A stretch of DNA of 64,000 nt from NCBI RefSeq assembly GCF_037975245.1, contig NC_092563.1, positions 21,210,699 to 21,274,698 on the forward strand, in the 5' to 3' direction. Positions 13,269 through 44,980 of the stretch are shown here, piece after piece. The position numbers and the translations under genes were made by a program. The notes under the pieces were generated by a model that saw nothing but the letters and a program-made list of their open reading frames with translations, was not told where the DNA came from and ran no database searches. Numbering within the stretch: position 1 is the first letter of the stretch; every line of letters starts with the position of its first letter. The DNA comes from Apostichopus japonicus. Lineage: Eukaryota; Echinodermata; Holothuroidea; Aspidochirotida; Stichopodidae.

Positions 13269-13360
13269 ATATATATATTTGCTGCATTTATCATAAACTG
13301 GTGAGCACCTGAAACTTAAGCCAGGGAACCGCCTCAGCTTAATCAGAGTGGTTGTGTGAA

Positions 13361-21400: not shown

Positions 21401-21500
21401 NNNNNNNNNNNNNNNNNNNNNNNNNNNNNNNNNNNNNNNNNNNNNNNNNNNNNNNNNNNNNNNNNNNNNNNNNNNNNNNNNNNNNNNNNNNNNNNNNNNN
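21401..21500. other. assembly gap (100 N)
   Basis: One hundred N directly abutting the satellite. The array's true left end and total length are therefore unknown. Confidence 0.99.
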
Positions 21501-21614
21501 ACGTGTTTTGGGTCCTGGGCTCGAGACCCGGCCACGGCAGTTTGCTTTTGCAGCGCTCTCATAGGGTTCTCTGGAACTTTAAGTATTAGGAACGAACATA
21601 GATTTATATCAGCT

Positions 21615-21689
21615 GCTGTCGTGGCGCGGTTGGTTGCGCTCGAGAGCGTGACGTGTTTTGGGTCCTGGGCTCGAGACCCGGCCACGGCA
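21615..21689 (+). other. tRNA-like head of one satellite unit (representative; recurs every 150 bp)
   Basis: A cloverleaf can be partly drawn. Acceptor strand GCTGTCG (21615-21621) faces CCACGGC (21682-21688), with six of seven positions pairing including one G-U. The D-arm is GCGC, loop GGTTGGTT, GCGC (21624-21639). The T-arm is CTGGG, loop CTCGAGA, CCCGG (21665-21681). TGGCGCGGTTGG resembles the pol III A box and GGCTCGAGACC the B box, each with one or two departures from consensus. The anticodon arm does not fold into a normal 5-bp stem, so it is not a working tRNA. TTTT at 21696-21699, seven bases after the discriminator base, could end pol III transcription. A TTTT at 21656-21659 inside the head would compete. 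This head layout is typical of tRNA-derived SINEs. Confidence 0.65.
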
Positions 21690-24600
21690 GTTTGCTTTTG
21701 CAGCGCTCTCATAGGGTTCTCTGGAACTTTAAGTATTAGGAACGAACATAGATTTATATCAGCTGCTGTCGTGGCGCGGTTGGTTGCGCTCGAGAGCGTG
21801 ACGTGTTTTGGGTCCTGGGCTCGAGACCCGACCACGGCAGTTTGCTTTTGCAGCGCTCTCATAGGGTTCTCTGGAACTTTAAGTATTAGGAACGAACATA
21901 GATTTATATCAGCTGCTGTCGTGGCGCGGTTGGTTGCGCTCGAGAGCGTGACGTGTTTTGGGTCCTGGGCTCGAGACCCGGCCACGGCAGTTTGCTTTTG
22001 CAGCGCTCTCATAGGGTTCTCTGGAACTTTAAGTATTAGGAACGAACATAGATTTATATCAGCTGCTGTCGTGGCGCGGTTGGTTGCGCTCGAGAGCGTG
22101 ACGTGTTTTGGGTCCTGGGCTCGAGACCCGACCACGGCAGTTTGCTTTTGCAGCGCTCTCATAGGGTTCTCTGGAACTTTAAGTATTAGGAACGAACATA
22201 GATTTATATCAGCTGCTGTCGTGGCGCGGTTGGTTGCGCTCGAGAGCGTGACGTGTTTTGGGTCCTGGGCTCGAGACCCGACCACGGCAGTTTGCTTTTG
22301 CAGCGCTCTCATAGGGTTCTCTGGAACTTTAAGTATTAGGAACGAACATAGATTTATATCAGCTGCTGTCGTGGCGCGGTTGGTTGCGCTCGAGAGCGTG
22401 ACGTGGTTTGGGTCCTGGGCTCGAGACCCGGCCACGGCAGTTTGCTTTTGCAGCGCTCTCATAGGGTTCTCTGGAACTTTAAGTATTAGGAACGAACATA
22501 GATTTATATCAGCTGCTGTCGTGGCGCGGTTGGTTGCGCTCGAGAGCGTGACGTGTTTTGGGTCCTGGGCTCGAGACCCGACCACGGCAGTTTGCTTTTG
22601 CAGCGCTCTCATAGGGTTCTCTGGAACTTTAAGTATTAGGAACGAACATAGATTTATATCAGCTGCTGTCGTGGCGCGGTTGGTTGCGCTCGAGAGCGTG
22701 ACGTGTTTTGGGTCCTGGGCTCGAGACCCGGCCACGGCAGTTTGCTTTTGCAGCGCTCTCATAGGGTTCTCTGGAACTTTAAGTATTAGGAACGAACATA
22801 GATTTATATCAGCTGCTGTCGTGGCGCGGTTGGTTGCGCTCGAGAGCGTGACGTGTTTTGGGTCCTGGGCTCGAGACCCGACCACGGCAGTTTGCTTTTG
22901 CAGCGCTCTCATAGGGTTCTCTGGAACTTTAAGTATTAGGAACGAACATAGATTTATATCAGCTGCTGTCGTGGCGCGGTTGGTTGCGCTCGAGAGCGTG
23001 ACGTGTTTTGGGTCCTGGGCTCGAGACCCGACCACGGCAGTTTGCTTTTGCAGCGCTCTCATAGGGTTCTCTGGAACTTTAAGTATTAGGAACGAACATA
23101 GATTTATATCAGCTGCTGTCGTGGCGCGGTTGGTTGCGCTCGAGAGCGTGACGTGTTTTGGGTCCTGGGCTCGAGACCCGGCCACGGCAGTTTGCTTTTG
23201 CAGCGCTCTCATAGGGTTCTCTGGAACTTTAAGTATTAGGAACGAACATAGATTTATATCAGCTGCTGTCGTGGCGCGGTTGGTTGCGCTCGAGAGCGTG
23301 ACGTGTTTTGGGTCCTGGGCTCGAGACCCGGCCACGGCAGTTTGCTTTTGCAGCGCTCTCATAGGGTTCTCTGGAACTTTAAGTATTAGGAACGAACATA
23401 GATTTATATCAGCTGCTGTCGTGGCGCGGTTGGTTGCGCTCGAGAGCGTGACGTGTTTTGGGTCCTGGGCTCGAGACCCGGCCACATCAGTTTGCTTTTG
23501 CAGCGCTCTCATAGGGTTCTCTGGAACTTTAAGTATTAGGAACGAACATAGATTTATATCAGCTGCTGTCGTGGCGCGGTTGGTTGCGCTCGAGAGCGTG
23601 ACGTGTTTTGGGTCCTGGGCTCGAGACCCGACCACGGCAGTTTGCTTTTGCAGCGCTCTCATAGGGTTCTCTGGAACTTTAAGTATTAGGAACGAACATA
23701 GATTTATATCAGCTGCTGTCGTGGCGCGGTTGGTTGCGCTCGAGAGCGTGACGTGTTTTGGGTCCTGGGCTCGAGACCCGGCCACGGCAGTTTGCTTTTG
23801 CAGCGCTCTCATAGGGTTCTCTGGAACTTTAAGTATTAGGAACGAACATAGATTTATATCAGCTGCTGTCGTGGCGCGGTTGGTTGCGCTCGAGAGCGTG
23901 ACGTGTTTTGGGTCCTGGGCTCGAGACCCGACCACGGCAGTTTGCTTTTGCAGCGCTCTCATAGGGTTCTCTGGAACTTTAAGTATTAGGAACGAACATA
24001 GATTTATATCAGCTGCTGTCGTGGCGCGGTTGGTTGCGCTCGAGAGCGTGACGTGTTTTGGGTCCTGGGCTCGAGACCCGGCCACGGCAGTTTGCTTTTG
24101 CAGCGCTCTCATAGGGTTCTCTGGAACTTTAAGTATTAGGAACGAACATAGATTTATATCAGCTGCTGTCGTGGCGCGGTTGGTTGCGCTCGAGAGCGTG
24201 ACGTGTTTTGGGTCCTGGGCTCGAGACCCGGCCACGGCAGTTTGCTTTTGCAGCGCTCTCATAGGGTTCTCTGGAACTTTAAGTATTAGGAACGAACATA
24301 GATTTATATCAGCTGCTGTCGTGGCGCGGTTGGTTGCGCTCGAGAGCGTGACGTGTTTTGGGTCCTGGGCTCGAGACCCGGCCACGGCAGTTTGCTTTTG
24401 CAGCGCTCTCATAGGGTTCTCTGGAACTTTAAGTATTAGGAACGAACATAGATTTATATCAGCTGCTGTCGTGGCGCGGTTGGTTGCGCTCGAGAGCGTG
24501 ACGTGTTTTGGGTCCTGGGCTCGAGACCCGGCCACGGCAGTTTGCTTTTGCAGCGCTCTCATAGGGTTCTCTGGAACTTTAAGTATTAGGAACGAACATA

Positions 24601-27600
24601 GATTTATATCAGCTGCTGTCGTGGCGCGGTTGGTTGCGCTCGAGAGCGTGACGTGTTTTGGGTCCTGGGCTCGAGACCCGGCCACGGCAGTTTGCTTTTG
24701 CAGCGCTCTCATAGGGTTCTCTGGAACTTTAAGTATTAGGAACGAACATAGATTTATATCAGCTGCTGTCGTGGCGCGGTTGGTTGCGCTCGAGAGCGTG
24801 ACGTGTTTTGGGTCCTGGGCTCGAGACCCGACCACGGCAGTTTGCTTTTGCAGCGCTCTCATAGGGTTCTCTGGAACTTTAAGTATTAGGAACGAACATA
24901 GATTTATATCAGCTGCTGTCGTGGCGCGGTTGGTTGCGCTCGAGAGCGTGACGTGTTTTGGGTCCTGGGCTCGAGACCCGACCACGGCAGTTTGCTTTTG
25001 CAGCGCTCTCATAGGGTTCTCTGGAACTTTAAGTATTAGGAACGAACATAGATTTATATCAGCTGCTGTCGTGGCGCGGTTGGTTGCGCTCGAGAGCGTG
25101 ACGTGTTTTGGGTCCTGGGCTCGAGACCCGGCCACGGCAGTTTGCTTTTGCAGCGCTCTCATAGGGTTCTCTGGAACTTTAAGTATTAGGAACGAACATA
25201 GATTTATATCAGCTGCTGTCGTGGCGCGGTTGGTTGCGCTCGAGAGCGTGACGTGTTTTGGGTCCTGGGCTCGAGACCCGGCCACGGCAGTTTGCTTTTG
25301 CAGCGCTCTCATAGGGTTCTCTGGAACTTTAAGTATTAGGAACGAACATAGATTTATATCAGCTGCTGTCGTGGCGCGGTTGGTTGCGCTCGAGAGCGTG
25401 ACGTGTTTTGGGTCCTGGGCTCGAGACCCGACCACGGCAGTTTGCTTTTGCAGCGCTCTCATAGGGTTCTCTGGAACTTTAAGTATTAGGAACGAACATA
25501 GATTTATATCAGCTGCTGTCGTGGCGCGGTTGGTTGCGCTCGAGAGCGTGACGTGTTTTGGGTCCTGGGCTCGAGACCCGACCACGGCAGTTTGCTTTTG
25601 CAGCGCTCTCATAGGGTTCTCTGGAACTTTAAGTATTAGGAACGAACATAGATTTATATCAGCTGCTGTCGTGGCGCGGTTGGTTGCGCTCGAGAGCGTG
25701 ACGTGTTTTGGGTCCTGGGCTCGAGACCCGGCCACGGCAGTTTGCTTTTGCAGCGCTCTCATAGGGTTCTCTGGAACTTTAAGTATTAGGAACGAACATA
25801 GATTTATATCAGCTGCTGTCGTGGCGCGGTTGGTTGCGCTCGAGAGCGTGACGTGTTTTGGGTCCTGGGCTCGAGACCCGGCCACGGCAGTTTGCTTTTG
25901 CAGCGCTCTCATAGGGTTCTCTGGAACTTTAAGTATTAGGAACGAACATAGATTTATATCAGCTGCTGTCGTGGCGCGGTTGGTTGCGCTCGAGAGCGTG
26001 ACGTGTTTTGGGTCCTGGGCTCGAGACCCGGCCACGGCAGTTTGCTTTTGCAGCGCTCTCATAGGGTTCTCTGGAACTTTAAGTATTAGGAACGAACATA
26101 GATTTATATCAGCTGCTGTCGTGGCGCGGTTGGTTGCGCTCGAGAGCGTGACGTGTTTTGGGTCCTGGGCTCGAGACCCGGCCACGGCAGTTTGCTTTTG
26201 CAGCGCTCTCATAGGGTTCTCTGGAACTTTAAGTATTAGGAACGAACATAGATTTATATCAGCTGCTGTCGTGGCGCGGTTGGTTGCGCTCGAGAGCGTG
26301 ACGTGTTTTGGGTCCTGGGCTCGAGACCCGGCCACGGCAGTTTGCTTTTGCAGCGCTCTCATAGGGTTCTCTGGAACTTTAAGTATTAGGAACGAACATA
26401 GATTTATATCAGCTGCTGTCGTGGCGCGGTTGGTTGCGCTCGAGAGCGTGACGTGTTTTGGGTCCTGGGCTCGAGACCCGACCACGGCAGTTTGCTTTTG
26501 CAGCGCTCTCATAGGGTTCTCTGGAACTTTAAGTATTAGGAACGAACATAGATTTATATCAGCTGCTGTCGTGGCGCGGTTGGTTGCGCTCGAGAGCGTG
26601 ACGTGTTTTGGGTCCTGGGCTCGAGACCCGGCCACGGCAGTTTGCTTTTGCAGCGCTCTCATAGGGTTCTCTGGAACTTTAAGTATTAGGAACGAACATA
26701 GATTTATATCAGCTGCTGTCGTGGCGCGGTTGGTTGCGCTCGAGAGCGTGACGTGTTTTGGGTCCTGGGCTCGAGACCCGGCCACGGCAGTTTGCTTTTG
26801 CAGCGCTCTCATAGGGTTCTCTGGAACTTTAAGTATTAGGAACGAACATAGATTTATATCAGCTGCTGTCGTGGCGCGGTTGGTTGCGCTCGAGAGCGTG
26901 ACGTGTTTTGGGTCCTGGGCTCGAGACCCGGCCACGGCAGTTTGCTTTTGCAGCGCTCTCATAGGGTTCTCTGGAACTTTAAGTATTAGGAACGAACATA
27001 GATTTATATCAGCTGCTGTCGTGGCGCGGTTGGTTGCGCTCGAGAGCGTGACGTGTTTTGGGTCCTGGGCTCGAGACCCGACCACGGCAGTTTGCTTTTG
27101 CAGCGCTCTCATAGGGTTCTCTGGAACTTTAAGTATTAGGAACGAACATAGATTTATATCAGCTGCTGTCGTGGCGCGGTTGGTTGCGCTCGAGAGCGTG
27201 ACGTGTTTTGGGTCCTGGGCTCGAGACCCGGCCACGGCAGTTTGCTTTTGCAGCGCTCTCATAGGGTTCTCTGGAACTTTAAGTATTAGGAACGAACATA
27301 GATTTATATCAGCTGCTGTCGTGGCGCGGTTGGTTGCGCTCGAGAGCGTGACGTGTTTTGGGTCCTGGGCTCGAGACCCGGCCACGGCAGTTTGCTTTTG
27401 CAGCGCTCTCATAGGGTTCTCTGGAACTTTAAGTATTAGGAACGAACATAGATTTATATCAGCTGCTGTCGTGGCGCGGTTGGTTGCGCTCGAGAGCGTG
27501 ACGTGTTTTGGGTCCTGGGCTCGAGACCCGGCCACGGCAGTTTGCTTTTGCAGCGCTCTTATAGGGTTCTCTGGAACTTTAAGTATTAGGAACGAACATA

Positions 27601-30600
27601 GATTTATATCAGCTGCTGTCGTGGCGCGGTTGGTTGCGCTCGAGAGCGTGACGTGTTTTGGGTCCTGGGCTCGAGACCCGGCCACGGCAGTTTGCTTTTG
27701 CAGCGCTCTCATAGGGTTCTCTGGAACTTTAAGTATTAGGAACGAACATAGATTTATATCAGCTGCTGTCGTGGCGCGGTTGGTTGCGCTCGAGAGCGTG
27801 ACGTGTTTTGGGTCCTGGGCTCGAGACCCGACCACGGCAGTTTGCTTTTGCAGCGCTCTCATAGGGTTCTCTGGAACTTTAAGTATTAGGAACGAACATA
27901 GATTTATATCAGCTGCTGTCGTGGCGCGGTTGGTTGCGCTCGAGAGCGTGACGTGTTTTGGGTCCTGGGCTCGAGACCCGGCCACGGCAGTTTGCTTTTG
28001 CAGCGCTCTCATAGGGTTCTCTGGAACTTTAAGTATTAGGAACGAACATAGATTTATATCAGCTGCTGTCGTGGCGCGGTTGGTTGCGCTCGAGAGCGTG
28101 ACGTGTTTTGGGTCCTGGGCTCGAGACCCGGCCACGGCAGTTTGCTTTTGCAGCGCTCTCATAGGGTTCTCTGGAACTTTAAGTATTAGGAACGAACATA
28201 GATTTATATCAGCTGCTGTCGTGGCGCGGTTGGTTGCGCTCGAGAGCGTGACGTGTTTTGGGTCCTGGGCTCGAGACCCGGCCACGGCAGTTTGCTTTTG
28301 CAGCGCTCTCATAGGGTTCTCTGGAACTTTAAGTATTAGGAACGAACATAGATTTATATCAGCTGCTGTCGTGGCGCGGTTGGTTGCGCTCGAGAGCGTG
28401 ACGTGTTTTGGGTCCTGGGCTCGAGACCCGGCCACGGCAGTTTGCTTTTGCAGCGCTCTCATAGGGTTCTCTGGAACTTTAAGTATTAGGAACGAACATA
28501 GATTTATATCAGCTGCTGTCGTGGCGCGGTTGGTTGCGCTCGAGAGCGTGACGTGTTTTGGGTCCTGGGCTCGAGACCCGGCCACGGCAGTTTGCTTTTG
28601 CAGCGCTCTCATAGGGTTCTCTGGAACTTTAAGTATTAGGAACGAACATAGATTTATATCAGCTGCTGTCGTGGCGCGGTTGGTTGCGCTCGAGAGCGTG
28701 ACGTGTTTTGGGTCCTGGGCTCGAGACCCGGCCACGGCAGTTTGCTTTTGCAGCGCTCTCATAGGGTTCTCTGGAACTTTAAGTATTAGGAACGAACATA
28801 GATTTATATCAGCTGCTGTCGTGGCGCGGTTGGTTGCGCTCGAGAGCGTGACGTGTTTTGGGTCCTGGGCTCGAGACCCGGCCACGGCAGTTTGCTTTTG
28901 CAGCGCTCTCATAGGGTTCTCTGGAACTTTAAGTATTAGGAACGAACATAGATTTATATCAGCTGCTGTCGTGGCGCGGTTGGTTGCGCTCGAGAGCGTG
29001 ACGTGTTTTGGGTCCTGGGCTCGAGACCCGGCCACGGCAGTTTGCTTTTGCAGCGCTCTCATAGGGTTCTCTGGAACTTTAAGTATTAGGAACGAACATA
29101 GATTTATATCAGCTGCTGTCGTGGCGCGGTTGGTTGCGCTCGAGAGCGTGACGTGTTTTGGGTCCTGGGCTCGAGACCCGGCCACGGCAGTTTGCTTTTG
29201 CAGCGCTCTCATAGGGTTCTCTGGAACTTTAAGTATTAGGAACGAACATAGATTTATATCAGCTGCTGTCGTGGCGCGGTTGGTTGCGCTCGAGAGCGTG
29301 ACGTGTTTTGGGTCCTGGGCTCGAGACCCGGCCACGGCAGTTTGCTTTTGCAGCGCTCTCATAGGGTTCTCTGGAACTTTAAGTATTAGGAACGAACATA
29401 GATTTATATCAGCTGCTGTCGTGGCGCGGTTGGTTGCGCTCGAGAGCGTGACGTGTTTTGGGTCCTGGGCTCGAGACCCGGCCACGGCAGTTTGCTTTTG
29501 CAGCGCTCTCATAGGGTTCTCTGGAACTTTAAGTATTAGGAACGAACATAGATTTATATCAGCTGCTGTCGTGGCGCGGTTGGTTGCGCTCGAGAGCGTG
29601 ACGTGTTTTGGGTCCTGGGCTCGAGACCCGGCCACGGCAGTTTGCTTTTGCAGCGCTCTCATAGGGTTCTCTGGAACTTTAAGTATTAGGAACGAACATA
29701 GATTTATATCAGCTGCTGTCGTGGCGCGGTTGGTTGCGCTCGAGAGCGTGACGTGTTTTGGGTCCTGGGCTCGAGACCCGGCCACGGCAGTTTGCTTTTG
29801 CAGCGCTCTCATAGGGTTCTCTGGAACTTTAAGTATTAGGAACGAACATAGATTTATATCAGCTGCTGTCGTGGCGCGGTTGGTTGCGCTCGAGAGCGTG
29901 ACGTGTTTTGGGTCCTGGGCTCGAGACCCGGCCACGGCAGTTTGCTTTTGCAGCGCTCTCATAGGGTTCTCTGGAACTTTAAGTATTAGGAACGAACATA
30001 GATTTATATCAGCTGCTGTCGTGGCGCGGTTGGTTGCGCTCGAGAGCGTGACGTGTTTTGGGTCCTGGGCTCGAGACCCGGCCACGGCAGTTTGCTTTTG
30101 CAGCGCTCTCATAGGGTTCTCTGGAACTTTAAGTATTAGGAACGAACATAGATTTATATCAGCTGCTGTCGTGGCGCGGTTGGTTGCGCTCGAGAGCGTG
30201 ACGTGTTTTGGGTCCTGGGCTCGAGACCCGGCCACGGCAGTTTGCTTTTGCAGCGCTCTCATAGGGTTCTCTGGAACTTTAAGTATTAGGAACGAACATA
30301 GATTTATATCAGCTGCTGTCGTGGCGCGGTTGGTTGCGCTCGAGAGCGTGACGTGTTTTGGGTCCTGGGCTCGAGACCCGGCCACGGCAGTTTGCTTTTG
30401 CAGCGCTCTCATAGGGTTCTCTGGAACTTTAAGTATTAGGAACGAACATAGATTTATATCAGCTGCTGTCGTGGCGCGGTTGGTTGCGCTCGAGAGCGTG
30501 ACGTGTTTTGGGTCCTGGGCTCGAGACCCGGCCACGGCAGTTTGCTTTTGCAGCGCTCTCATAGGGTTCTCTGGAACTTTAAGTATTAGGAACGAACATA

Positions 30601-33600
30601 GATTTATATCAGCTGCTGTCGTGGCGCGGTTGGTTGCGCTCGAGAGCGTGACGTGTTTTGGGTCCTGGGCTCGAGACCCGGCCACGGCAGTTTGCTTTTG
30701 CAGCGCTCTCATAGGGTTCTCTGGAACTTTAAGTATTAGGAACGAACATAGATTTATATCAGCTGCTGTCGTGGCGCGGTTGGTTGCGCTCGAGAGCGTG
30801 ACGTGTTTTGGGTCCTGGGCTCGAGACCCGGCCACGGCAGTTTGCTTTTGCAGCGCTCTCATAGGGTTCTCTGGAACTTTAAGTATTAGGAACGAACATA
30901 GATTTATATCAGCTGCTGTCGTGGCGCGGTTGGTTGCCCTCGAGAGCGTGACGTGTTTTGGGTCCTGGGCTCGAGACCCGGCCACGGCAGTTTGCTTTTG
31001 CAGCGCTCTCATAGGGTTCTCTGGAACTTTAAGTATTAGGAACGAACATAGATTTATATCAGCTGCTGTCGTGGCGCGGTTGGTTGCGCTCGAGAGCGTG
31101 ACGTGTTTTGGGTCCTGGGCTCGAGACCCGGCCACGGCAGTTTGCTTTTGCAGCGCTCTCATAGGGTTCTCTGGAACTTTAAGTATTAGGAACGAACATA
31201 GATTTATATCAGCTGCTGTCGTGGCGCGGTTGGTTGCGCTCGAGAGCGTGACGTGTTTTGGGTCCTGGGCTCGAGACCCGGCCACGGCAGTTTGCTTTTG
31301 CAGCGCTCTCATAGGGTTCTCTGGAACTTTAAGTATTAGGAACGAACATAGATTTATATCAGCTGCTGTCGTGGCGCGGTTGGTTGCGCTCGAGAGCGTG
31401 ACGTGTTTTGGGTCCTGGGCTCGAGACCCGGCCACGGCAGTTTGCTTTTGCAGCGCTCTCATAGGGTTCTCTGGAACTTTAAGTATTAGGAACGAACATA
31501 GATTTATATCAGCTGCTGTCGTGGCGCGGTTGGTTGCGCTCGAGAGCGTGACGTGTTTTGGGTCCTGGGCTCGAGACCCGGCCACGGCAGTTTGCTTTTG
31601 CAGCGCTCTCATAGGGTTCTCTGGAACTTTAAGTATTAGGAACGAACATAGATTTATATCAGCTGCTGTCGTGGCGCGGTTGGTTGCGCTCGAGAGCGTG
31701 ACGTGTTTTGGGTCCTGGGCTCGAGACCCGGCCACGGCAGTTTGCTTTTGCAGCGCTCTCATAGGGTTCTCTGGAACTTTAAGTATTAGGAACGAACATA
31801 GATTTATATCAGCTGCTGTCGTGGCGCGGTTGGTTGCCCTCGAGAGCGTGACGTGTTTTGGGTCCTGGGCTCGAGACCCGGCCACGGCAGTTTGCTTTTG
31901 CAGCGCTCTCATAGGGTTCTCTGGAACTTTAAGTATTAGGAACGAACATAGATTTATATCAGCTGCTGTCGTGGCGCGGTTGGTTGCGCTCGAGAGCGTG
32001 ACGTGTTTTGGGTCCTGGGCTCGAGACCCGGCCACGGCAGTTTGCTTTTGCAGCGCTCTCATAGGGTTCTCTGGAACTTTAAGTATTAGGAACGAACATA
32101 GATTTATATCAGCTGCTGTCGTGGCGCGGTTGGTTGCGCTCGAGAGCGTGACGTGTTTTGGGTCCTGAGCTCGAGACCCGGCCACGGCAGTTTGCTTTTG
32201 CAGCGCTCTCATAGGGTTCTCTGGAACTTTAAGTATTAGGAACGAACATAGATTTATATCAGCTGCTGTCGTGGCGCGGTTGGTTGCGCTCGAGAGCGTG
32301 ACGTGTTTTGGGTCCTGGGCTCGAGACCCGGCCACGGCAGTTTGCTTTTGCAGCGCTCTCATAGGGTTCTCTGGAACTTTAAGTATTAGGAACGAACATA
32401 GATTTATATCAGCTGCTGTCGTGGCGCGGTTGGTTGCGCTCGAGAGCGTGACGTGTTTTGGGTCCTGGGCTCGAGACCCGGCCACGGCAGTTTGCTTTTG
32501 CAGCGCTCTCATAGGGTTCTCTGGAACTTTAAGTATTAGGAACGAACATAGATTTATATCAGCTGCTGTCGTGGCGCGGTTGGTTGCGCTCGAGAGCGTG
32601 ACGTGTTTTGGGTCCTGGGCTCGAGACCCGGCCACGGCAGTTTGCTTTTGCAGCGCTCTCATAGGGTTCTCTGGAACTTTAAGTATTAGGAACGAACATA
32701 GATTTATATCAGCTGCTGTCGTGGCGCGGTTGGTTGCGCTCGAGAGCGTGACGTGTTTTGGGTCCTGGGCTCGAGACCCGGCCACTGCAGTTTGCTTTTG
32801 CAGCGCTCTCATAGGGTTCTCTGGAACTTTAAGTATTAGGAACGAACATAGATTTATATCAGCTGCTGTCGTGGCGCGGTTGGTTGCGCTCGAGAGCGTG
32901 ACGTGTTTTGGGTCCTGGGCTCGAGACCCGACCACGGCAGTTTGCTTTTGCAGCGCTCTCATAGGGTTCTCTGGAACTTTAAGTATTAGGAACGAACATA
33001 GATTTATATCAGCTGCTGTCGTGGCGCGGTTGGTTGCGCTCGAGAGCGTGACGTGTTTTGGGTCCTGGGCTCGAGACCCGGCCACGGCAGTTTGCTTTTG
33101 CAGCGCTCTCATAGGGTTCTCTGGAACTTTAAGTATTAGGAACGAACATAGATTTATATCAGCTGCTGTCGTGGCGCGGTTGGTTGCGCTCGAGAGCGTG
33201 ACGTGTTTTGGGTCCTGGGCTCGAGACCCGGCCACGGCAGTTTGCTTTTGCAGCGCTCTCATAGGGTTCTCTGGAACTTTAAGTATTAGGAACGAACATA
33301 GATTTATATCAGCTGCTGTCGTGGCGCGGTTGGTTGCGCTCGAGAGCGTGACGTGTTTTGGGTCCTGGGCTCGAGACCCGACCACGGCAGTTTGCTTTTG
33401 CAGCGCTCTCATAGGGTTCTCTGGAACTTTAAGTATTAGGAACGAACATAGATTTATATCAGCTGCTGTCGTGGCGCGGTTGGTTGCGCTCGAGAGCGTG
33501 ACGTGTTTTGGGTCCTGGGCTCGAGACCCGACCACGGCAGTTTGCTTTTGCAGCGCTCTCATAGGGTTCTCTGGAACTTTAAGTATTAGGAACGAACATA

Positions 33601-36600
33601 GATTTATATCAGCTGCTGTCGTGGCGCGGTTGGTTGCGCTCGAGAGCGTGACGTGTTTTGGGTCCTGGGCTCGAGACCCGACCACGGCAGTTTGCTTTTG
33701 CAGCGCTCTCATAGGGTTCTCTGGAACTTTAAGTATTAGGAACGAACATAGATTTATATCAGCTGCTGTCGTGGCGCGGTTGGTTGCGCTCGAGAGCGTG
33801 ACGTGTTTTGGGTCCTGGGCTCGAGACCCGGCCACGGCAGTTTGCTTTTGCAGCGCTCTCATAGGGTTCTCTGGAACTTTAAGTATTAGGAACGAACATA
33901 GATTTATATCAGCTGCTGTCGTGGCGCGGTTGGTTGCGCTCGAGAGCGTGACGTGTTTTGGGTCCTGGGCTCGAGACCCGGCCACGGCAGTTTGCTTTTG
34001 CAGCGCTCTCATAGGGTTCTCTGGAACTTTAAGTATTAGGAACGAACATAGATTTATATCAGCTGCTGTCGTGGCGCGGTTGGTTGCGCTCGAGAGCGTG
34101 ACGTGTTTTGGGTCCTGGGCTCGAGACCCGGCCACGGCAGTTTGCTTTTGCAGCGCTCTCATAGGGTTCTCTGGAACTTTAAGTATTAGGAACGAACATA
34201 GATTTATATCAGCTGCTGTCGTGGCGCGGTTGGTTGCGCTCGAGAGCGTGACGTGTTTTGGGTCCTGGGCTCGAGACCCGACCACGGCAGTTTGCTTTTG
34301 CAGCGCTCTCATAGGGTTCTCTGGAACTTTAAGTATTAGGAACGAACATAGATTTATATCAGCTGCTGTCGTGGCGCGGTTGGTTGCGCTCGAGAGCGTG
34401 ACGTGTTTTGGGTCCTGGGCTCGAGACCCGGCCACGGCAGTTTGCTTTTGCAGCGCTCTCATAGGGTTCTCTGGAACTTTAAGTATTAGGAACGAACATA
34501 GATTTATATCAGCTGCTGTCGTGGCGCGGTTGGTTGCGCTCGAGAGCGTGACGTGTTTTGGGTCCTGGGCTCGAGACCCGGCCACGGCAGTTTGCTTTTG
34601 CAGCGCTCTCATAGGGTTCTCTGGAACTTTAAGTATTAGGAACGAACATAGATTTATATCAGCTGCTGTCGTGGCGCGGTTGGTTGCGCTCGAGAGCGTG
34701 ACGTGTTTTGGGTCCTGGGCTCGAGACCCGGCCACGGCAGTTTGCTTTTGCAGCGCTCTCATAGGGTTCTCTGGAACTTTAAGTATTAGGAACGAACATA
34801 GATTTATATCAGCTGCTGTCGTGGCGCGGTTGGTTGCGCTCGAGAGCGTGACGTGTTTTGGGTCCTGGGCTCGAGACCCGGCCACGGCAGTTTGCTTTTG
34901 CAGCGCTCTCATAGGGTTCTCTGGAACTTTAAGTATTAGGAACGAACATAGATTTATATCAGCTGCTGTCGTGGCGCGGTTGGTTGCGCTCGAGAGCGTG
35001 ACGTGTTTTGGGTCCTGGGCTCGAGACCCGGCCACGGCAGTTTGCTTTTGCAGCGCTCTCATAGGGTTCTCTGGAACTTTAAGTATTAGGAACGAACATA
35101 GATTTATATCAGCTGCTGTCGTGGCGCGGTTGGTTGCGCTCGAGAGCGTGACGTGTTTTGGGTCCTGGGCTCGAGACCCGGCCACGGCAGTTTGCTTTTG
35201 CAGCGCTCTCATAGGGTTCTCTGGAACTTTAAGTATTAGGAACGAACATAGATTTATATCAGCTGCTGTCGTGGCGCGGTTGGTTGCGCTCGAGAGCGTG
35301 ACGTGTTTTGGGTCCTGGGCTCGAGACCCGGCCACGGCAGTTTGCTTTTGCAGCGCTCTCATAGGGTTCTCTGGAACTTTAAGTATTAGGAACGAACATA
35401 GATTTATATCAGCTGCTGTCGTGGCGCGGTTGGTTGCGCTCGAGAGCGTGACGTGTTTTGGGTCCTGGGCTCGAGACCCGGCCACGGCAGTTTGCTTTTG
35501 CAGCGCTCTCATAGGGTTCTCTGGAACTTTAAGTATTAGGAACGAACATAGATTTATATCAGCTGCTGTCGTGGCGCGGTTGGTTGCGCTCGAGAGCGTG
35601 ACGTGTTTTGGGTCCTGGGCTCGAGACCCGGCCACGGCAGTTTGCTTTTGCAGCGCTCTCATAGGGTTCTCTGGAACTTTAAGTATTAGGAACGAACATA
35701 GATTTATATCAGCTGCTGTCGTGGCGCGGTTGGTTGCGCTCGAGAGCGTGACGTGTTTTGGGTCCTGGGCTCGAGACCCGGCCACGGCAGTTTGCTTTTG
35801 CAGCGCTCTCATAGGGTTCTCTGGAACTTTAAGTATTAGGAACGAACATAGATTTATATCAGCTGCTGTCGTGGCGCGGTTGGTTGCGCTCGAGAGCGTG
35901 ACGTGTTTTGGGTCCTGGGCTCGAGACCCGGCCACGGCAGTTTGCTTTTGCAGCGCTCTCATAGGGTTCTCTGGAACTTTAAGTATTAGGAACGAACATA
36001 GATTTATATCAGCTGCTGTCGTGGCGCGGTTGGTTGCGCTCGAGAGCGTGACGTGTTTTGGGTCCTGGGCTCGAGACCCGGCCACGGCAGTTTGCTTTTG
36101 CAGCGCTCTCATAGGGTTCTCTGGAACTTTAAGTATTAGGAACGAACATAGATTTATATCAGCTGCTGTCGTGGCGCGGTTGGTTGCGCTCGAGAGCGTG
36201 ACGTGTTTTGGGTCCTGGGCTCGAGACCCGGCCACGGCAGTTTGCTTTTGCAGCGCTCTCATAGGGTTCTCTGGAACTTTAAGTATTAGGAACGAACATA
36301 GATTTATATCAGCTGCTGTCGTGGCGCGGTTGGTTGCGCTCGAGAGCGTGACGTGTTTTGGGTCCTGGGCTCGAGACCCGGCCACGGCAGTTTGCTTTTG
36401 CAGCGCTCTCATAGGGTTCTCTGGAACTTTAAGTATTAGGAACGAACATAGATTTATATCAGCTGCTGTCGTGGCGCGGTTGGTTGCGCTCGAGAGCGTG
36501 ACGTGTTTTGGGTCCTGGGCTCGAGACCCGGCCACGGCAGTTTGCTTTTGCAGCGCTCTCATAGGGTTCTCTGGAACTTTAAGTATTAGGAACGAACATA

Positions 36601-39600
36601 GATTTATATCAGCTGCTGTCGTGGCGCGGTTGGTTGCGCTCGAGAGCGTGACGTGTTTTGGGTCCTGGGCTCGAGACCCGACCACGGCAGTTTGCTTTTG
36701 CAGCGCTCTCATAGGGTTCTCTGGAACTTTAAGTATTAGGAACGAACATAGATTTATATCAGCTGCTGTCGTGGCGCGGTTGGTTGCGCTCGAGAGCGTG
36801 ACGTGTTTTGGGTCCTGGGCTCGAGACCCGACCACGGCAGTTTGCTTTTGCAGCGCTCTCATAGGGTTCTCTGGAACTTTAAGTATTAGGAACGAACATA
36901 GATTTATATCAGCTGCTGTCGTGGCGCGGTTGGTTGCGCTCGAGAGCGTGACGTGTTTTGGGTCCTGGGCTCGAGACCCGACCACGGCAGTTTGCTTTTG
37001 CAGCGCTCTCATAGGGTTCTCTGGAACTTTAAGTATTAGGAACGAACATAGATTTATATCAGCTGCTGTCGTGGCGCGGTTGGTTGCGCTCGAGAGCGTG
37101 ACGTGTTTTGGGTCCTGGGCTCGAGACCCGACCACGGCAGTTTGCTTTTGCAGCGCTCTCATAGGGTTCTCTGGAACTTTAAGTATTAGGAACGAACATA
37201 GATTTATATCAGCTGCTGTCGTGGCGCGGTTGGTTGCGCTCGAGAGCGTGACGTGTTTTGGGTCCTGGGCTCGAGACCCGACCACGGCAGTTTGCTTTTG
37301 CAGCGCTCTCATAGGGTTCTCTGGAACTTTAAGTATTAGGAACGAACATAGATTTATATCAGCTGCTGTCGTGGCGCGGTTGGTTGCGCTCGAGAGCGTG
37401 ACGTGTTTTGGGTCCTGGGCTCGAGACCCGACCACGGCAGTTTGCTTTTGCAGCGCTCTCATAGGGTTCTCTGGAACTTTAAGTATTAGGAACGAACATA
37501 GATTTATATCAGCTGCTGTCGTGGCGCGGTTGGTTGCGCTCGAGAGCGTGACGTGTTTTGGGTCCTGGGCTCGAGACCCGACCACGGCAGTTTGCTTTTG
37601 CAGCGCTCTCATAGGGTTCTCTGGAACTTTAAGTATTAGGAACGAACATAGATTTATATCAGCTGCTGTCGTGGCGCGGTTGGTTGCGCTCGAGAGCGTG
37701 ACGTGTTTTGGGTCCTGGGCTCGAGACCCGACCACGGCAGTTTGCTTTTGCAGCGCTCTCATAGGGTTCTCTGGAACTTTAAGTATTAGGAACGAACATA
37801 GATTTATATCAGCTGCTGTCGTGGCGCGGTTGGTTGCGCTCGAGAGCGTGACGTGTTTTGGGTCCTGGGCTCGAGACCCGACCACGGCAGTTTGCTTTTG
37901 CAGCGCTCTCATAGGGTTCTCTGGAACTTTAAGTATTAGGAACGAACATAGATTTATATCAGCTGCTGTCGTGGCGCGGTTGGTTGCGCTCGAGAGCGTG
38001 ACGTGTTTTGGGTCCTGGGCTCGAGACCCGACCACGGCAGTTTGCTTTTGCAGCGCTCTCATAGGGTTCTCTGGAACTTTAAGTATTAGGAACGAACATA
38101 GATTTATATCAGCTGCTGTCGTGGCGCGGTTGGTTGCGCTCGAGAGCGTGACGTGTTTTGGGTCCTGGGCTCGAGACCCGGCCACGGCAGTTTGCTTTTG
38201 CAGCGCTCTCATAGGGTTCTCTGGAACTTTAAGTATTAGGAACGAACATAGATTTATATCAGCTGCTGTCGTGGCGCGGTTGGTTGCGCTCGAGAGCGTG
38301 ACGTGTTTTGGGTCCTGGGCTCGAGACCCGGCCACGGCAGTTTGCTTTTGCAGCGCTCTCATAGGGTTCTCTGGAACTTTAAGTATTAGGAACGAACATA
38401 GATTTATATCAGCTGCTGTCGTGGCGCGGTTGGTTGCGCTCGAGAGCGTGACGTGTTTTGGGTCCTGGGCTCGAGACCCGGCCACGGCAGTTTGCTTTTG
38501 CAGCGCTCTCATAGGGTTCTCTGGAACTTTAAGTATTAGGAACGAACATAGATTTATATCAGCTGCTGTCGTGGCGCGGTTGGTTGCGCTCGAGAGCGTG
38601 ACGTGTTTTGGGTCCTGGGCTCGAGACCCGACCACGGCAGTTTGCTTTTGCAGCGCTCTCATAGGGTTTTCTGGAACTTTAAGTATTAGGAACGAACATA
38701 GATTTATATCAGCTGCTGTCGTGGCGCGGTTGGTTGCGCTCGAGAGCGTGACGTGTTTTGGGTCCTGGGCTCGAGACCCGACCACGGCAGTTTGCTTTTG
38801 CAGCGCTCTCATAGGGTTCTCTGGAACTTTAAGTATTAGGAACGAACATAGATTTATATCAGCTGCTGTCGTGGCGCGGTTGGTTGCGCTCGAGAGCGTG
38901 ACGTGTTTTGGGTCCTGGGCTCGAGACCCGGCCACGGCAGTTTGCTTTTGCAGCGCTCTCATAGGGTTCTCTGGAACTTTAAGTATTAGGAACGAACATA
39001 GATTTATATCAGCTGCTGTCGTGGCGCGGTTGGTTGCGCTCGAGAGCGTGACGTGTTTTGGGTCCTGGGCTCGAGACCCGACCACGGCAGTTTGCTTTTG
39101 CAGCGCTCTCATAGGGTTCTCTGGAACTTTAAGTATTAGGAACGAACATAGATTTATATCAGCTGCTGTCGTGGCGCGGTTGGTTGCGCTCGAGAGCGTG
39201 ACGTGTTTTGGGTCCTGGGCTCGAGACCCGACCACGGCAGTTTGCTTTTGCAGCGCTCTCATAGGGTTCTCTGGAACTTTAAGTATTAGGAACGAACATA
39301 GATTTATATCAGCTGCTGTCGTGGCGCGGTTGGTTGCGCTCGAGAGCGTGACGTGTTTTGGGTCCTGGGCTCGAGACCCGGCCACGGCAGTTTGCTTTTG
39401 CAGCGCTCTCATAGGGTTCTCTGGAACTTTAAGTATTAGGAACGAACATAGATTTATATCAGCTGCTGTCGTGGCGCGGTTGGTTGCGCTCGAGAGCGTG
39501 ACGTGTTTTGGGTCCTGGGCTCGAGACCCGGCCACGGCAGTTTGCTTTTGCAGCGCTCTCATAGGGTTCTCTGGAACTTTAAGTATTAGGAACGAACATA

Positions 39601-39650
39601 GATTTATATCAGCTGCTGTCGTGGCGCGGTTGGTTGCGCTCGAGAGCGTG

Positions 39651-39692
39651 ACGTGTTTTGGGTCCTGGGCACGGCAGTTTGCTTTTGCAGCG
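39651..39692 (+). repeat. terminal partial satellite unit lacking the B box
   Basis: The last unit reads ACGTGTTTTGGGTCCTGGGC, then jumps to ACGGCAG. Thirteen bases containing the T-loop and B-box core are absent. Similarity to the unit ends at about 39692, giving a sharp right edge. Confidence 0.9.
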
Positions 39693-41694
39693 ATCTAAGC
39701 ATCTATGCAGCTGAACAAAGTAGAAGATTGTGATAATTGTAGAATAAAAGAGTAGCAAATTAAGAATACCGAATGCCCTTCCTTTCATCTGCTCGCTAGA
39801 GTAATATCAACATTTAACCAAAGATTTTCTAAAATGGTTTATATTACCTTGGATATTTCCTATTTTCACACCACCTGTACTTTAAAATATGCTGTTTCAT
39901 ATAACTGCAGCACTATTGATGACAGTAACTGATACCATGCTTCAACAAGCTTTACCTTTCTCGTTAACCTTTTGATGGGATGAACACTACTCTGACTGTG
40001 TTGCGGTACCTGATGGTAGCATACGCCCATTCAAAAAATACATTGACACACTAAATCACAAAAGTAATGTGGCCTCTAAGTCTAGATAAAAATGTCCCAC
40101 TATCATCGCCGTTCGGATAGCTGACAAGTTGGCTTTTCATGGCACATCAATTTTTCCTTACCATGACCGCGCAGATTTTTTTTTATCCGAGTCGGAAGTT
40201 TTCGTCACTTGTAAACAAACCCCTCTACTCAGTAGTAAACAATTTTCTTACGCTGCGCCTGGGAGGCCTAAAGGGGCCTAAAATTGCCTCAATCGACCAC
40301 ATTTTTGCAACACATATACTTCCATTCATGCTCTTCAACACGCAAGCCATAAAAAAAACTAGATCATGATCGGTAACAGGTCACAAAAGATTTTCTCCTG
40401 CTGCTTTTTGGCACTTTTCCTGAAGGAGAACAATCGAGCGGATGGATATAATAGACTCTTATTGGGTATGCCACCTGATGTGAATACGACTAGATATAAA
40501 CGGGAGGTGCACTGTCAAATCAGGGAGTTGTTATGGAACAACTCCCTGGTCAAATTGAACAGATGGCGCTATGCACAACATGTGTGCTGACTGCTGAGCC
40601 GTATATAGGCTCTGCATGTGTGCTGAAGTATGCGAACAACGAATACTGTTACCCAATGAGAAAACGGGAGAAACGCTGCTGTCTAACTAAGATGTCTATC
40701 TAAGGGTAAAGGTCGCAAAGTACAGTTTTAGAAACCTAACATTGTGCCCTGTATGTTCTTATATCTTCTAAGATCTTTCATGTCTAATAAACCGACAACA
40801 ATATAGGCATATTGACGCTAGATCCCACGGCACTGTCATTTGTCAAAACGCATATAGGCTAGCCTAATTTAGGCCTAGGCTGAGCTATGATATGTAATAA
40901 CTTTTAATGCCTAAGCCGTTAGCGTAAAGTTAGGCCCTATCCGTGTGCAACAAATTTACGGCATACTGTGCCTGCATATATAGGCCTACGTTTTTTGTCA
41001 ATGTCATGAATTGAAATGGTCTTAGACCAAAAGGATCAATAAAGTTAGGCATTATTGTAAAAATTGAAATCATAGAAAAATTCCTTTCACATTGTATATT
41101 TGCACGTGATAAAAATAAATCAATCGCAGCCCAATTCATCCACACTACTAATACAATAGGCTACCCTAGTGTGTTCTTTTTAAATTGTCAATAAATGCTA
41201 TGGATTATGGGGCCGAGGCTAGCCCTGTATGGAATAATCAACAAGAAACAGAAAGACTAGCTTTATCCAATGATTTTGGAGGGAGAAAAATACCTTGAAC
41301 ATGGCAAAGTGATTGCATGCCATCATAACTGTTTATATATAGCACTAAACCTACCACTGGCTAACAGTTACACTTATAACATGCAGGCATAGATGTAGCA
41401 AAGGCCTGATATTGGGGGGGGGGGGGGGGTAGTCGCTGAAATTCCAACTGGATGGATTTTGAAACCAGACAATTCTGGCTGCTGCCTTGTATCCCCCCCC
41501 CCCCACCCTGCGCTTCTCGTCAACGATACGGTCAGTGTCAGTCAGACTTCCTATCTTTCGCGACTGCAATTTTGTTCTGACCTTTTTTCAATACATTTGT
41601 ACCCACTGGCCCTCACTTCATAAACTTATTAATCAATCTGAGTAAAAGTTATCTGCTTGAAGGCTCCATAGGCTACTAACTACAAAAGCTATGT
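39693..41694. other. noncoding DNA right of the satellite
   Basis: No supported gene. It contains a perfect hairpin at 40521-40548 and a paired G run (about 41415-41430) and C run (about 41492-41503). The short open frames here have no recognisable similarity. Confidence 0.5.
40519..40550. repeat. perfect 12-bp inverted repeat with 4-nt loop
   Basis: CAGGGAGTTGTT, loop ATGG, then AACAACTCCCTG. The hairpin is flanked by the direct repeat GTCAAAT on the left and GTCAAATTG on the right. Confidence 0.8.
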
Positions 41695-42407
41695 TTTGAT
41701 TGATTGATTGATATTTTTTATCACGTGAATATATACAATTTGGTAGGAAGTCCTCTAAAAAACCTTCAGATGGCTAAACAAAGTAGAGAACTCCCTGTAA
41801 AGAAAAGGAAAAAGTAAACTAAATGTATAAGAAAATATGAACATGTTCAATTGATAAAATGCAATAATTTTTTGAATAAAGTTTCTTCTGAATGATTTTG
41901 CAGAGGGTTTATTTGTGATATCGTCTGATAGAGAATTCCATGTTTTGATTGTACGTGCCCTTAGTGATAACATCCCCGTTGTAGAATTATACCTGTTATA
42001 ATGTGCATTGTCTGAAAATATGATATTGTAATGACGAATCGCTGTTACTTATTAAGTAGTCATTAAAACCATTTGGTAACAGTCCATTCCATGCCTAATT
42101 ATAAGCAAATGTAGCAAGATTAACCCTAATAATGTCATCAGTTTTTAACAACTTAGAATGTTTAAAAAGAGGATTTGTGTGGTAACATGGTTTGGCATGT
42201 GTTATATGGCGGACTGCTCTCTTCTGTGTAATACAAATGGGATTCAGATTGGTATATCTAGTACCACACCATCTGTTACAACAGTATGTGGCTGGACTAA
42301 TGTCTGATAGAGAATCTTTAATGCGTTGTGGCAGGTAATACTTAAGCTTAGCTAAAACACCGGTGTTTTTTAAACTTTTTTACAGACAGTTGTAATGTGG
42401 TCACACC

Positions 42408-42485
42408 ATTTCATTCATTCGTTCATTCATTCATTCATTCATTCATTCATTTTTTTTTCACATAAATATTACAATGTGAATGGAG
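42408..42485 (-). mobile_element. inserted 3'-tail fragment of a related non-LTR element
   Basis: An (ATTC)n run of about 40 bp is followed by TTTTTTCACATAAATATTAC and AATGTGAATGGA. The same tail occurs at 49246-49300. It splits the host reverse transcriptase between the region before WxDH and the following codons, so it inserted after the host element landed. Confidence 0.6.
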
Positions 42486-43016
42486 TTTATGATCTATATA
42501 AACGCCTACAAATCAAGTACTATTGCCTTGTTGTAGTCGTTTACCACCCATCAGCATTCCATGTAAAATTCTTGTATTAAAAACTATATAGTTTGTTTGA
42601 TCAATATTCAATGATAACTTGTTGCTAGCGAACCAGTCGCTGCACTTGTCTAATTTAGTTGATACTTCAATATGAAATAAAGTTCTCAATTGTGATACAA
42701 AGATTATATTTGTGTTGTCAGCAAACAAAACAACTTTAACTTTATCAGAAACATTGGTAATGTCATTAACATATGGGATAAAAAGCAATGGACCAAGTAT
42801 AGAGCCTTGTGACACACCACATGGAATTCTCTCCGATTGGGAATGAGCATTTTTGTAGGATGTATATTGGTAGCGGTTTGCTAAGTAACTGTTGATCCAA
42901 TTTAGGGGGTTCCTCTTATGCAGTAACGGTGTAATTTATTAAGCAGAATTGTCAGGTCTATTGTGTCAAAGGCCTCTGAGAGGTCCAGGAAAGCCCCAAC
43001 ACAGGTACTATTCTCA

Positions 43017-43796
43017 GGGGGGATGCAAGATTTGTGACAGGGGGGGTTTACTGGTCCAGCCGCGCTTGAACGTAAGACTATCTAGCGGAGCGCCACCATC
43101 AGTTGGCGCGGAGCGCACTAGGAAATTTTTGGCTTTAAAAACCCCCCCAGATGGCCGGAAACGGCACTTCCCGAGTATTCTAAGCTGCATGTACCTAGCC
43201 TGAAAATATGGATCTCATGTCTGCAATTTCTCAATTGATGAGAAAAAAAACAATCTATGAAATATGGTATTTACATATCAGATAAGTTGAGATGATACAA
43301 AAATCATAATGCCTTTAGCCCCCAATCCCCCTCCCATTCCGTCACCACTGTTTGATGCAGGGCCGGATCCAGGACTCTGGAAGGGTGAGGGGTTTGGGTG
43401 AGGGGTTTGGCCTCCAGTTATCCTAGGGTCTAAGGGGAGTGGGTTTCCCCCTATTGTGAAATCCTTGGATATTTAAGTACAACATGGAACCCCCTTCAAT
43501 TTAGCCATGCAAAGCACCTACAAAAACTCACTCGAAATGTATCTGCATCCATACGAGTTAGCTTTTCGGTCTGAAAATTGAGATTTTTAGGCATTTTTGG
43601 CACGTGTAGCACGCGTGCACACTATAGTTCATTTAACGGTAAAGACCCACCTGGCTGACTTGTAAGGATAACCGCCCGTCTGACGTTCTACATGTTTAAA
43701 ATTGGCGTTTTATTTAATTATTTTTTTCTCTCTCTTTTTTTTTCTCTTTTTTTTTTGGCCAAGAGCGGGGGGGGGGACCCCCCTCTGGATCAGCGC
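43017..43796. mobile_element. nested insertion inside the reverse transcriptase element
   Basis: Reverse transcriptase coding breaks off after LAKNQ (near 43797) and resumes with [11 protein letters not shown] (near 43016), where a few residues should separate them. The intervening 780 bp has G-rich and C-rich ends. Within it, CAGGGCCGGATCCAGGACTC at 43358-43379 and the reverse complement of CTGGATCAGCGCCTG at 43785-43799 are similar. A smaller inverted-repeat element of about 440 bp may therefore make up its right half. No coding capacity was recognised. Confidence 0.55.
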
Positions 43797-44290
43797 CTGA
43801 TTCTTGGCAAGATTACTGTATAAATTGTCAATGGCATCAGCTAGTGCTATCTCAGTGGAGTGTTCAGGACGGAATCCGTATACTGTTCGTGGCATAAAAT
43901 GTTATATTTTGAAATAAAGTTAAAAATACGATTATAACATAAGCCTTTCAACTATTTTGGAAAAACATGATAATAGTGTTAAAGGTCGATAATTTTCATA
44001 GTTTGCTGAATCCTCTTTCTTAAAGACAGGGATGACCTTGGCAATTTTTAGCATATCAGGAAAAAATACCGATATTGAACGACAAATTGCAAATATGGGG
44101 TTAATGGTTTAGTAATAAATGGGATAATTTGCCTTACAATACCAGGCTTGAAATCATCGTATCCAGCTGCTTTATTGGGTTTCATGCAAGAGGTGGCTGT
44201 TAAAGAGGTGGCTGTTATGTTAATGGTAACAATGGGAAAACTTTTTTTTTCATCAAAATATATTCAATGATATGTTATGATATATTCAAT

Positions 44291-44612
44291 ATGTTAAGAA
44301 TAAGCCTTCTTACTCTGTATTCAAAAGGAATCTCCAAACTGTAATTATTTCTCACTATTGATGGATTTAGTCTTGTGTGTGTTTGCGTTTAAGATCATTA
44401 TAAAGATTGTTAGGATTGCTTATTAACATTATTAATTTCAAGTAGAGTCAATTCGATTAGTACATCATTGTAGATGCTACTATTAACTTTTCTTTTTCTA
44501 TTCTTAAGTTTTTCTTTCTTTTTTTTCTTTTTGGGGAGTCTCCTACTTTGTTAAGCCTTACAGGCTTTATAGGAGACTTCCCGTCACACTGCAATTTGTG
44601 ATGAAACAAAAC
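44291..44612 (+). mobile_element. 3' fragment of the same non-LTR family as 57395-58740
   Basis: It begins inside the C-terminal coding part (the AATAAGCCTTCTTACTCTG block) and continues through the 3'UTR. It includes the hairpin region AGTCTCCTACTTTGTTAAGC to TATAGGAGACT. It aligns with the end of the 60266 copy nearly base for base, and it is 5'-truncated as expected for target-primed retrotransposition. Confidence 0.8.
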
Positions 44613-44980
44613 GACAGTGAATTACCAAAAATTACAGTGCTTCTTCCTAGCGCACTTCATATTATTTTCTTTGTTTCTTTTGGAGGGGGGGTGGGGGGCG
44701 GGTGGGGCTATTTATCACTCACATGAAAAAATATTCAATTGTTAACTTCATTCCAACTGAGCATATGGAATGAAGAAAACAATTAAACATTTGGCATAAA
44801 AATGTTGAGTTGACGAGATACAATAAAGTTGTCAGTTAAACATTTTGAAGATAATTTTTCAATTGCTCAGATGGAATGAAGTGAAAAATTGAACATTTTA
44901 CAGCAAAATGTCCAATTGACGAGATATGATATTTTGCAGAAAAATGTCCAATTGACGAAATGTGATAAGTTGTCAATTAA
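44613..44980. other. short noncoding stretch with degenerate repeats
   Basis: AT-rich sequence with several variants of TGTCCAATTGACGA and CAATTGCTCAGAT. These resemble the arm of the inverted-repeat element that follows. Confidence 0.5.

Follow-up and report, generated by a model that had tools for sequence, protein, structure and literature searches.

Tandem repeats with tRNA-related segments are known from several animals. In squamate reptiles, satellites derived from short interspersed elements (SINEs) and named sSat consist of tandem units of 67-215 nt that include part of a tRNA-related SINE, as presented in the accessible part of PMC10702118. The same part of that source covers the RNA polymerase III (pol III) tandem repeats of amphibians, OAX (Xenopus), PolIII/TAN (Cynops) and Rana/polIII, each with a tRNA-like segment; the unit is about 360 nt in TAN, which is transcribed in vitro, about 250 nt in Rana and longer in OAX, and the link of these repeats to SINEs is described there as unproven (PMC10702118). 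In the limpet Patella caerulea, PcH-sat has a long segment in common with a tRNA-type SINE (Nin-SINE) and is pericentromeric by fluorescence in situ hybridization, according to the accessible sections of PMC11121367. The window analysed here, a 64-kb stretch of contig C3 of the sea cucumber Apostichopus japonicus (C3:21210699-21274698; genome assembly of 671.6 Mb in 35 contigs), contains a long array of a 150-bp satellite. The unit of this satellite is considered, with a probability of roughly 0.75, to be the descendant of a pol III-type, tRNA-like sequence (about 75-83 nt) to which a body of some 75-80 bp was joined.

Results

tRNA-like head of the satellite unit

A first-pass annotation of the window, made from the sequence alone, had described an A-box-like and a B-box-like string in every unit, a D-arm and a T-arm able to fold, an acceptor stem paired at six of seven positions and a TTTT seven bases past the tRNA-like end. 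All these elements were recovered (Table 1). The A-box-like string TGGCGCGGTTGG is found 121 times and the B-box-like string GGCTCGAGACC 120 times, the last, broken unit being devoid of the B-box region, and both are absent from the window outside the array (+ strand). Other strings of the unit recur similarly on the same strand of the array: the acceptor 5' strand GCTGTCG (121 copies), CCACGGC (119 copies) and GCAGTTTGCTTTTG (121 copies). In the best register the D stem is paired at 4/4 positions, the T stem at 5/5 and the acceptor at 6/7, and the two boxes are 46 bases apart from start to start. As in tRNA-derived SINEs, the head of the unit is tRNA-like and its A and B boxes are spaced as in a tRNA. 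The box-plus-stem score of the window unit was 30, a value reached by 0/3000 dinucleotide shuffles (best 28). With the usual A14/T54 numbering and the pol III box consensus (GWTCRANNC for the B-box), each box of the window unit deviates at one key base, A14 being replaced by G and T54 by C.

Programs for tRNA detection gave uneven results. ARAGORN found no tRNA in the window unit at default settings, and at -ps90 called it tRNA-Val(gac) with a score of 37, any call being obtained in 8/3000 shuffled units; at -ps80, in a run without shuffle control, 25 of 28 subfamily units received a tRNA call at about the same position. At default settings, a tRNA was called in a variant from contig C24 that belongs to the window's subfamily and naturally has T54. 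The Rfam tRNA model RF00005 did not match the window unit at the gathering score nor at E 10, so that the covariance-model score expected of a tRNA gene was not obtained; a tRNA covariance model was the check that the first-pass annotation had proposed, and it had listed silence of this model among the points that would refute its proposal. Rfam matches to Scr3920, snoR30 and others (E 0.9-10) were far under the gathering scores and were taken as chance. The minimum-free-energy RNA of the unit is a three-way stem and not a cloverleaf (z -3.35, with 2/200 shuffles equally stable).

Older relatives and loss of the key box residues

Boxes of related units were read with templates allowing 2 substitutions. 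Readable A and B boxes numbered 18 and 16 among 26 old unit hits, 20 and 19 among 22 intermediate hits, 205 and 197 among 221 long-type hits, and 394 and 392 among 402 short-type hits, some short-type units being counted twice (overlapping loci L067/L068 and L069/L070). In old dispersed relatives (14 loci), A14 was present in 16/18 A-boxes and the consensus GWTCRANNC in 14/16 B-boxes. Intermediate relatives (5 loci) had A14 in 18/20 and the B-box consensus in 0/19, long-type arrays had A14 in 5/205 and the consensus in 2/197, and short-type arrays had 0/394 and 1/392, respectively. Within the window's family, the large arrays are those with altered boxes. When the box-plus-stem score was determined for four older units, shuffles scoring as high were 2, 0, 0 and 0 of 600 each.

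Because the older relatives mostly have consensus boxes and the C24 variant passes ARAGORN at default settings, a tRNA-like ancestry of the unit is supported. A mere chance resemblance of a satellite to a tRNA would agree with the silence of Rfam, and of ARAGORN at default settings, on the window unit. This explanation is highly improbable, given that no shuffle reached the score of 30, that the boxes of old relatives are closer to the consensus than those of the window unit, that the sister satellite described below has the better B-box and that a natural variant is called by ARAGORN at default settings.

Organization of the array in the window

The 150-bp satellite annotated at 21501..39692 was confirmed, with 121 complete units to 39650 and a broken unit extending to about 39694. 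Tandem Repeats Finder reported a single array at 21501-39670 (period 150, 121.1 copies, 99% matches, 0% indels). When the 121 units were cut at 150-base steps, 8 variable positions were found in total, 6 in the tRNA-like half and 2 in the other half, and the units comprised 9 distinct sequences with a mean pairwise difference of 0.0037 per site. Neighbouring units are identical in 75/120 pairs, and the one common variant, carried by 34/121 units, is clustered, forming 35 runs along the array where 49.9 would be expected (7/10000 shuffles with as few). The few distinct units, the clustered variant and the array-specific differences observed are features of the within-array homogenisation of satellites, and long head-to-tail arrays with thousands of copies are represented by the 121 units of the window and the 21,005 tail sites of the genome.

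CpG is not depleted in the array (observed/expected 1.16, versus 0.50 in the flanks). No significant match to the unit was found elsewhere in the window, fragments of long interspersed element (LINE) reverse transcriptase included. The array contains very long open frames (6104 codons on the minus strand, 3598 and 2509 on the plus strand), a protein-coding reading of which was rejected: with a unit length of 150, divisible by 3, and no indels, any frame free of stops continues from unit to unit. Contig C24 (130 kb; locus L134) contains 150-bp units of the window's subfamily, including the G/A variant of the window array, and it may hold part of the stretch missing at the 100-N gap to the left of the array.

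Genome-wide abundance and subfamilies

Copies in the genome were counted as pattern sites within 3 mismatches, with a reversed-pattern control for each pattern. The tail 23-mer gave 21,005 sites, the short (window)-type head 2,329 and the long-type head 18,851, with 0 sites in each control; the head total of 21,180 agrees with the tail count, and heads and tails of the unit go together genome-wide. The family amounts to about 21,000 units, about 3.3 Mb or 0.49% of the assembly, and was read on 13 contigs. Unit alignment was tried in 29 loci, including 8 of the 12 placed in the location survey, and an alignable unit was obtained in 28 of them on 12 contigs (locus L079 yielded none), C24 being the thirteenth contig. 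The short type (149-151 bp) was found in 9/28 loci (on C3 in the window and at three further places, and on C7, the right end of C20, C26 and C28) and the long type (154-157 bp) in 18/28 (C2, C4, C11, C14, C15, C19, C20 and C21); the remaining locus, L080, has an older form of the unit. Short-type units lack TCTGTAC in the anticodon-arm region (a net 6 bp), apparently through deletion, since old relatives have this stretch or a variant of it. The family belongs to a known kind of satellite, with arrays shaped by concerted evolution, and its scale is unusual. Exact unit patterns had 0 matches in the viral contig and genome contig collections, and no published description of this repeat was found in a library without most subscription papers.

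Sister satellite of 165-166 bp

A sister satellite with a unit of 165-166 bp makes up locus L141 (C2:17333000-17333450) and the right end of C21 (L120). In L141 the B-box is the consensus GGTTCGAACCCC, of which L120 carries a close form, and the A-box-like sequence TGGCGCGATGG is also without A14. The L141 unit aligns over its full length with an old unit of the window's family (score 44 versus 9.5 for the best of 1000 shuffles). A 25-mer of the sister B arm, with the consensus B-box, gave 34,920 sites within 3 mismatches (control 0), equivalent at 165 bp per site to about 5.8 Mb or 0.86% of the assembly, so that the sister satellite is more abundant than the window's family. Among the sister matches listed, 100 exact sites lie at C2 17.16-18.09 Mb, inside the C2 cluster of the window's family; a variant pattern designed to place the sister family by contig gave 0 sites. 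The two subfamilies and the homologous sister family account together for about 56,000 pattern sites, and the window's family plus the sister family (21,005 + 34,920 pattern sites) for about 1.35% of the assembly.

Location of the arrays and segmental duplication

Among the matches listed, clusters of the window's family occupy the middle of contigs C2, C3 and C15, whereas those on C4, C7, C11, C14, C19, C20 and C21 are close to a contig end. The starts of C7 and C11 and the end of C20 are inside satellite; the last site among the matches listed is followed, at a distance of about 16 kb on C4 and about 180 kb on C19, by terminal TTAGGG repeats; and the starts of C14, C15, C19, C20 and C21 read N. 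Twenty contig-end stretches comprised 10 with telomere repeats (TTAGGG or CCCTAA), 5 with N, 4 with satellite and 1 with other DNA. No exact match of three unit patterns was present on C1 among the matches listed, which are apparently ordered by contig. These locations fit a pericentromeric and a subtelomeric satellite alike.

The window array and its 6.6-kb right flank are a segmental duplication. The flank is found inverted beside another C3 array, at 20.234-20.262 Mb, with 96.5% identity over 40184-46318 and 96.8% over 39693-39911; that array was read at its two ends, on either side of a middle part of 12 kb. The arrays have, therefore, also spread by segmental duplication, as these two C3 arrays have a common flank that is 96.5-96.8% identical. 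Positions 39912-40183 of the window (about 270 bp) are missing from the other flank copy, by insertion in the window or deletion there.

One LINE type was observed next to units in several loci. Its 3' end (GTGAGCCAGTGGGCTC..., with an A-rich tail) meets the anticodon-arm region of the unit no more than about 10 nt ahead of CTGTACC at 4/4 places found by pattern among the window and the loci read (L040, L081, L129 and L132) and, by eye, in L144; these loci were chosen because they contain the unit and are not a random sample. In L081, ggttgtgctct is present on both sides of the insert, and the exact junction pattern has 3 sites genome-wide. The junctions suggest a LINE with a possible target preference for the satellite unit. 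The short type of the window is without the stretch at which this LINE joins. LINE reverse-transcriptase fragments (PF00078) are present in the window at 57655-58866 and 42513-42935, both on the minus strand, and 447 bp of the former are 96% identical to a LINE that neighbours the satellite at C3:20.07 Mb. In four C1 loci (L096, L097, L140 and L142), old units border on a different repeat (end CAAGGGCGGCGG / CCGCCGCCCTTG), which meets them at TCTCTACC or a close variant in 3/4, either by a shared insertion or because the locus was duplicated.

Possible SINE stage

In one variant of the tRNA-like origin, this head and body would have belonged to a formerly active, true tRNA-derived SINE, with the satellites as its tandem derivatives, a proposal to which somewhat less than an even chance is given. 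The old-type B arm has only 81 genome sites within 3 mismatches, mostly in arrays (25 in the C9 array, 16 on C3 and 5 on C24), so the many dispersed solitary copies of a tRNA-derived SINE were not found, single-unit pieces being few. On the other side, 28 of the 81 sites are without another listed site within 700 bp (some of the 28 lie in arrays), and a profile search of the 14 old loci gave a single unit hit in 5, with two or three hits in the other 9. By eye, old pieces are about 0.6-3 units long and end at varied points of the unit, and neither a LINE-like 3' end nor a clean target-site duplication of the unit was seen in the loci examined, which argues to some extent against a SINE; locus L123 has a 13-bp repeat, but it is beside a simple repeat of similar motif. 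The only SINE-like end observed is that of L135-L137 (C10, paralogous), where one 5'-truncated unit ends in a CA/TA simple repeat and has been duplicated with its left flank, which gives head, body and simple tail in one duplicated insertion. In favour of a SINE are also four of the ten loci examined (L123, L125, L126 and L128, with a left flank common to L125 and L126), which start by eye roughly 10-20 nt before the tRNA-like start, the expected start of a pol III transcript, although this observation is post hoc. The reptile SINE-derived satellites, as far as the accessible part of their description goes, provide a precedent (PMC10702118). The proposal of the first-pass annotation, that a SINE head was captured into a satellite, is supported in part: the tRNA-like ancestry holds, and the capture itself may or may not have occurred, as heads and tails go together in the genome, some old loci gave a single unit hit, one insertion has a SINE-like tail and no clean target-site duplication was seen by eye.

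Other features

Table 1. Features of the satellite array and its surroundings in the window.
Feature	Position	Strand	Remarks
Assembly gap, 100 N	21401..21500	.	True left end of array beyond gap
Tandem array	21501..39650	+	121 units x 150 bp, indel-free
tRNA-like head, 75 nt, first complete example	21615..21689	+	Recurs every 150 bp
A-box-like TGGCGCGGTTGG	21622..21633	+	G instead of A14; 121 copies in array
B-box-like GGCTCGAGACC	21668..21678	+	C instead of T54; 120 copies in array
TTTT, possible pol III terminator	21696..21699	+	7 bases past last acceptor base
Broken last unit	39651..39694 (end ~39694)	+	B-box region lost; junction to other DNA
Right flank	39693..46318	+	Duplicated inverted beside array at C3:20.234-20.262 Mb

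To the left of the array, a palindrome-like element at 20244-20641 (73% inverted self-match) contains a 21-bp tandem repeat (13.6 copies, 20308-20594) and resembles a miniature inverted-repeat transposable element carrying a minisatellite; positions 6877-7215 match 20641-21004 inverted at 84%. A single open frame of 512 codons at 13343-14881 (+) encodes a sulfotransferase domain (PF00685, E 5e-17), and a PDB search with this frame gave 0 matches. Elsewhere on C3, at 17.760-17.777 Mb (L011-L038), there is a tandem array of tRNA genes, which lie on either strand and are frequently spaced by about 170 or 340 bp; it holds 57 of the 61 tRNA matches (63 of 55,204 candidates scored), and ARAGORN found tRNA-Lys(UUU) in the loci read there.

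Discussion

The preferred history of the satellite starts with a unit that would have arisen as a small pol III-type repeat and would have duplicated in tandem. Short pieces of the tandem repeat, as well as segmental duplications, would then have carried it through the genome, and the arrays would have expanded and been homogenised by unequal exchange and gene conversion, processes that work without transcription and for which pol III activity would be unnecessary. Unequal exchange and gene conversion acting on a tRNA-derived unit, together with segmental duplication, is the most likely mechanism. The tRNA-like head would be mainly a relic in the window array; if this array were transcribed, the predicted RNA would have roughly 85-95 nt and end at the TTTT.

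Several observations weigh against this history. The Rfam tRNA model also misses the old-relative loci, and because it recognises neither young nor old units the ancestor may have been a SINE or another pol III element and not a tRNA gene. The order from old to young relies on the state of the boxes, on divergence and on the length of the arrays, and not on a rooted tree. A consensus B-box is kept, in the units seen, by the sister family and by an array of 168-bp units on C9 (25 old-type B-arm sites at C9:21.684-21.692 Mb). In addition, box columns vary less than other columns among subfamily units (3/23 versus 47/138 variable; Fisher p 0.052), also when L080 is omitted (1/23 versus 36/138; p 0.029), the rows not being independent. 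The head is less variable than the tail in array A (31 units; 0.0069 versus 0.0118) and in array B (0.0088 versus 0.0147), and the relation is reversed in the window array (0.0046 versus 0.0002); loci L043-L062 were excluded from this comparison (18 did not fit the placement and 2 were without units). Some constraint on the boxes may exist, the evidence for it being weak and mixed.

Such constraint would be expected if the arrays were TFIIIC/pol III chromatin elements acting in boundary formation, clustering or centromere organisation, with boxes kept for that role. Near-consensus boxes repeated at a spacing of 149-166 bp, the somewhat lower variability of box columns, the consensus B-box in the sister units seen (of a family with 34,920 sites) and the undepleted CpG of the array are consistent with this role. 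It is nevertheless unlikely, as A14 and T54 are lost in large arrays of the window's family, the sister A-box-like TGGCGCGATGG has no A14 either, and homogenisation alone predicts uniformity within arrays. For the window array, the more than 120 potential TFIIIC sites, the swarm of pol III RNAs and the boundary element suggested by the first-pass annotation are not supported because these key residues are lost. A more specific and slightly less probable proposal is that both satellites are the main pericentromeric or centromeric DNA, that the sister satellite, with its consensus B-box in the units seen, still recruits TFIIIC, and that the window's subfamily is a decayed branch of this system. 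If that were true, a pol III factor at near-nucleosomal spacing would help to organise chromosome clusters.

Under the preferred origin from a tRNA-like sequence, a single genome contains every stage between short pieces whose pol III boxes fit the consensus and megabases of satellite whose boxes are altered, and the question of whether pol III activity helps or hinders the birth of a satellite becomes testable. The C2 cluster contains both families, of which the sister family has a consensus B-box and the window's family has not, so that a comparison of the two is possible with respect to RNA, TFIIIC and centromere proteins.

Compared with the described systems, the satellite of A. japonicus is like the squamate sSat in its tandem tRNA-related units; long sSat loci are more homogeneous and some sSat units are near 150 nt, according to the accessible part of PMC10702118. 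It differs in that the parent SINE families of sSat are known in that source, whereas here there are about 21,000 tandem units versus 81 old-type B-arm sites. Of the head, the main snake sSat unit includes no more than the 3' portion, which carries box B (PMC10702118), whereas both boxes, in altered form, are present here. With respect to the amphibian pol III repeats covered by the same source (PMC10702118), the unit here is of 149-166 bp and there are two homologous families. Finally, unlike PcH-sat, which is without boxes A and B in the accessible sections of its description (PMC11121367), the satellite of the window retains both boxes in altered form.

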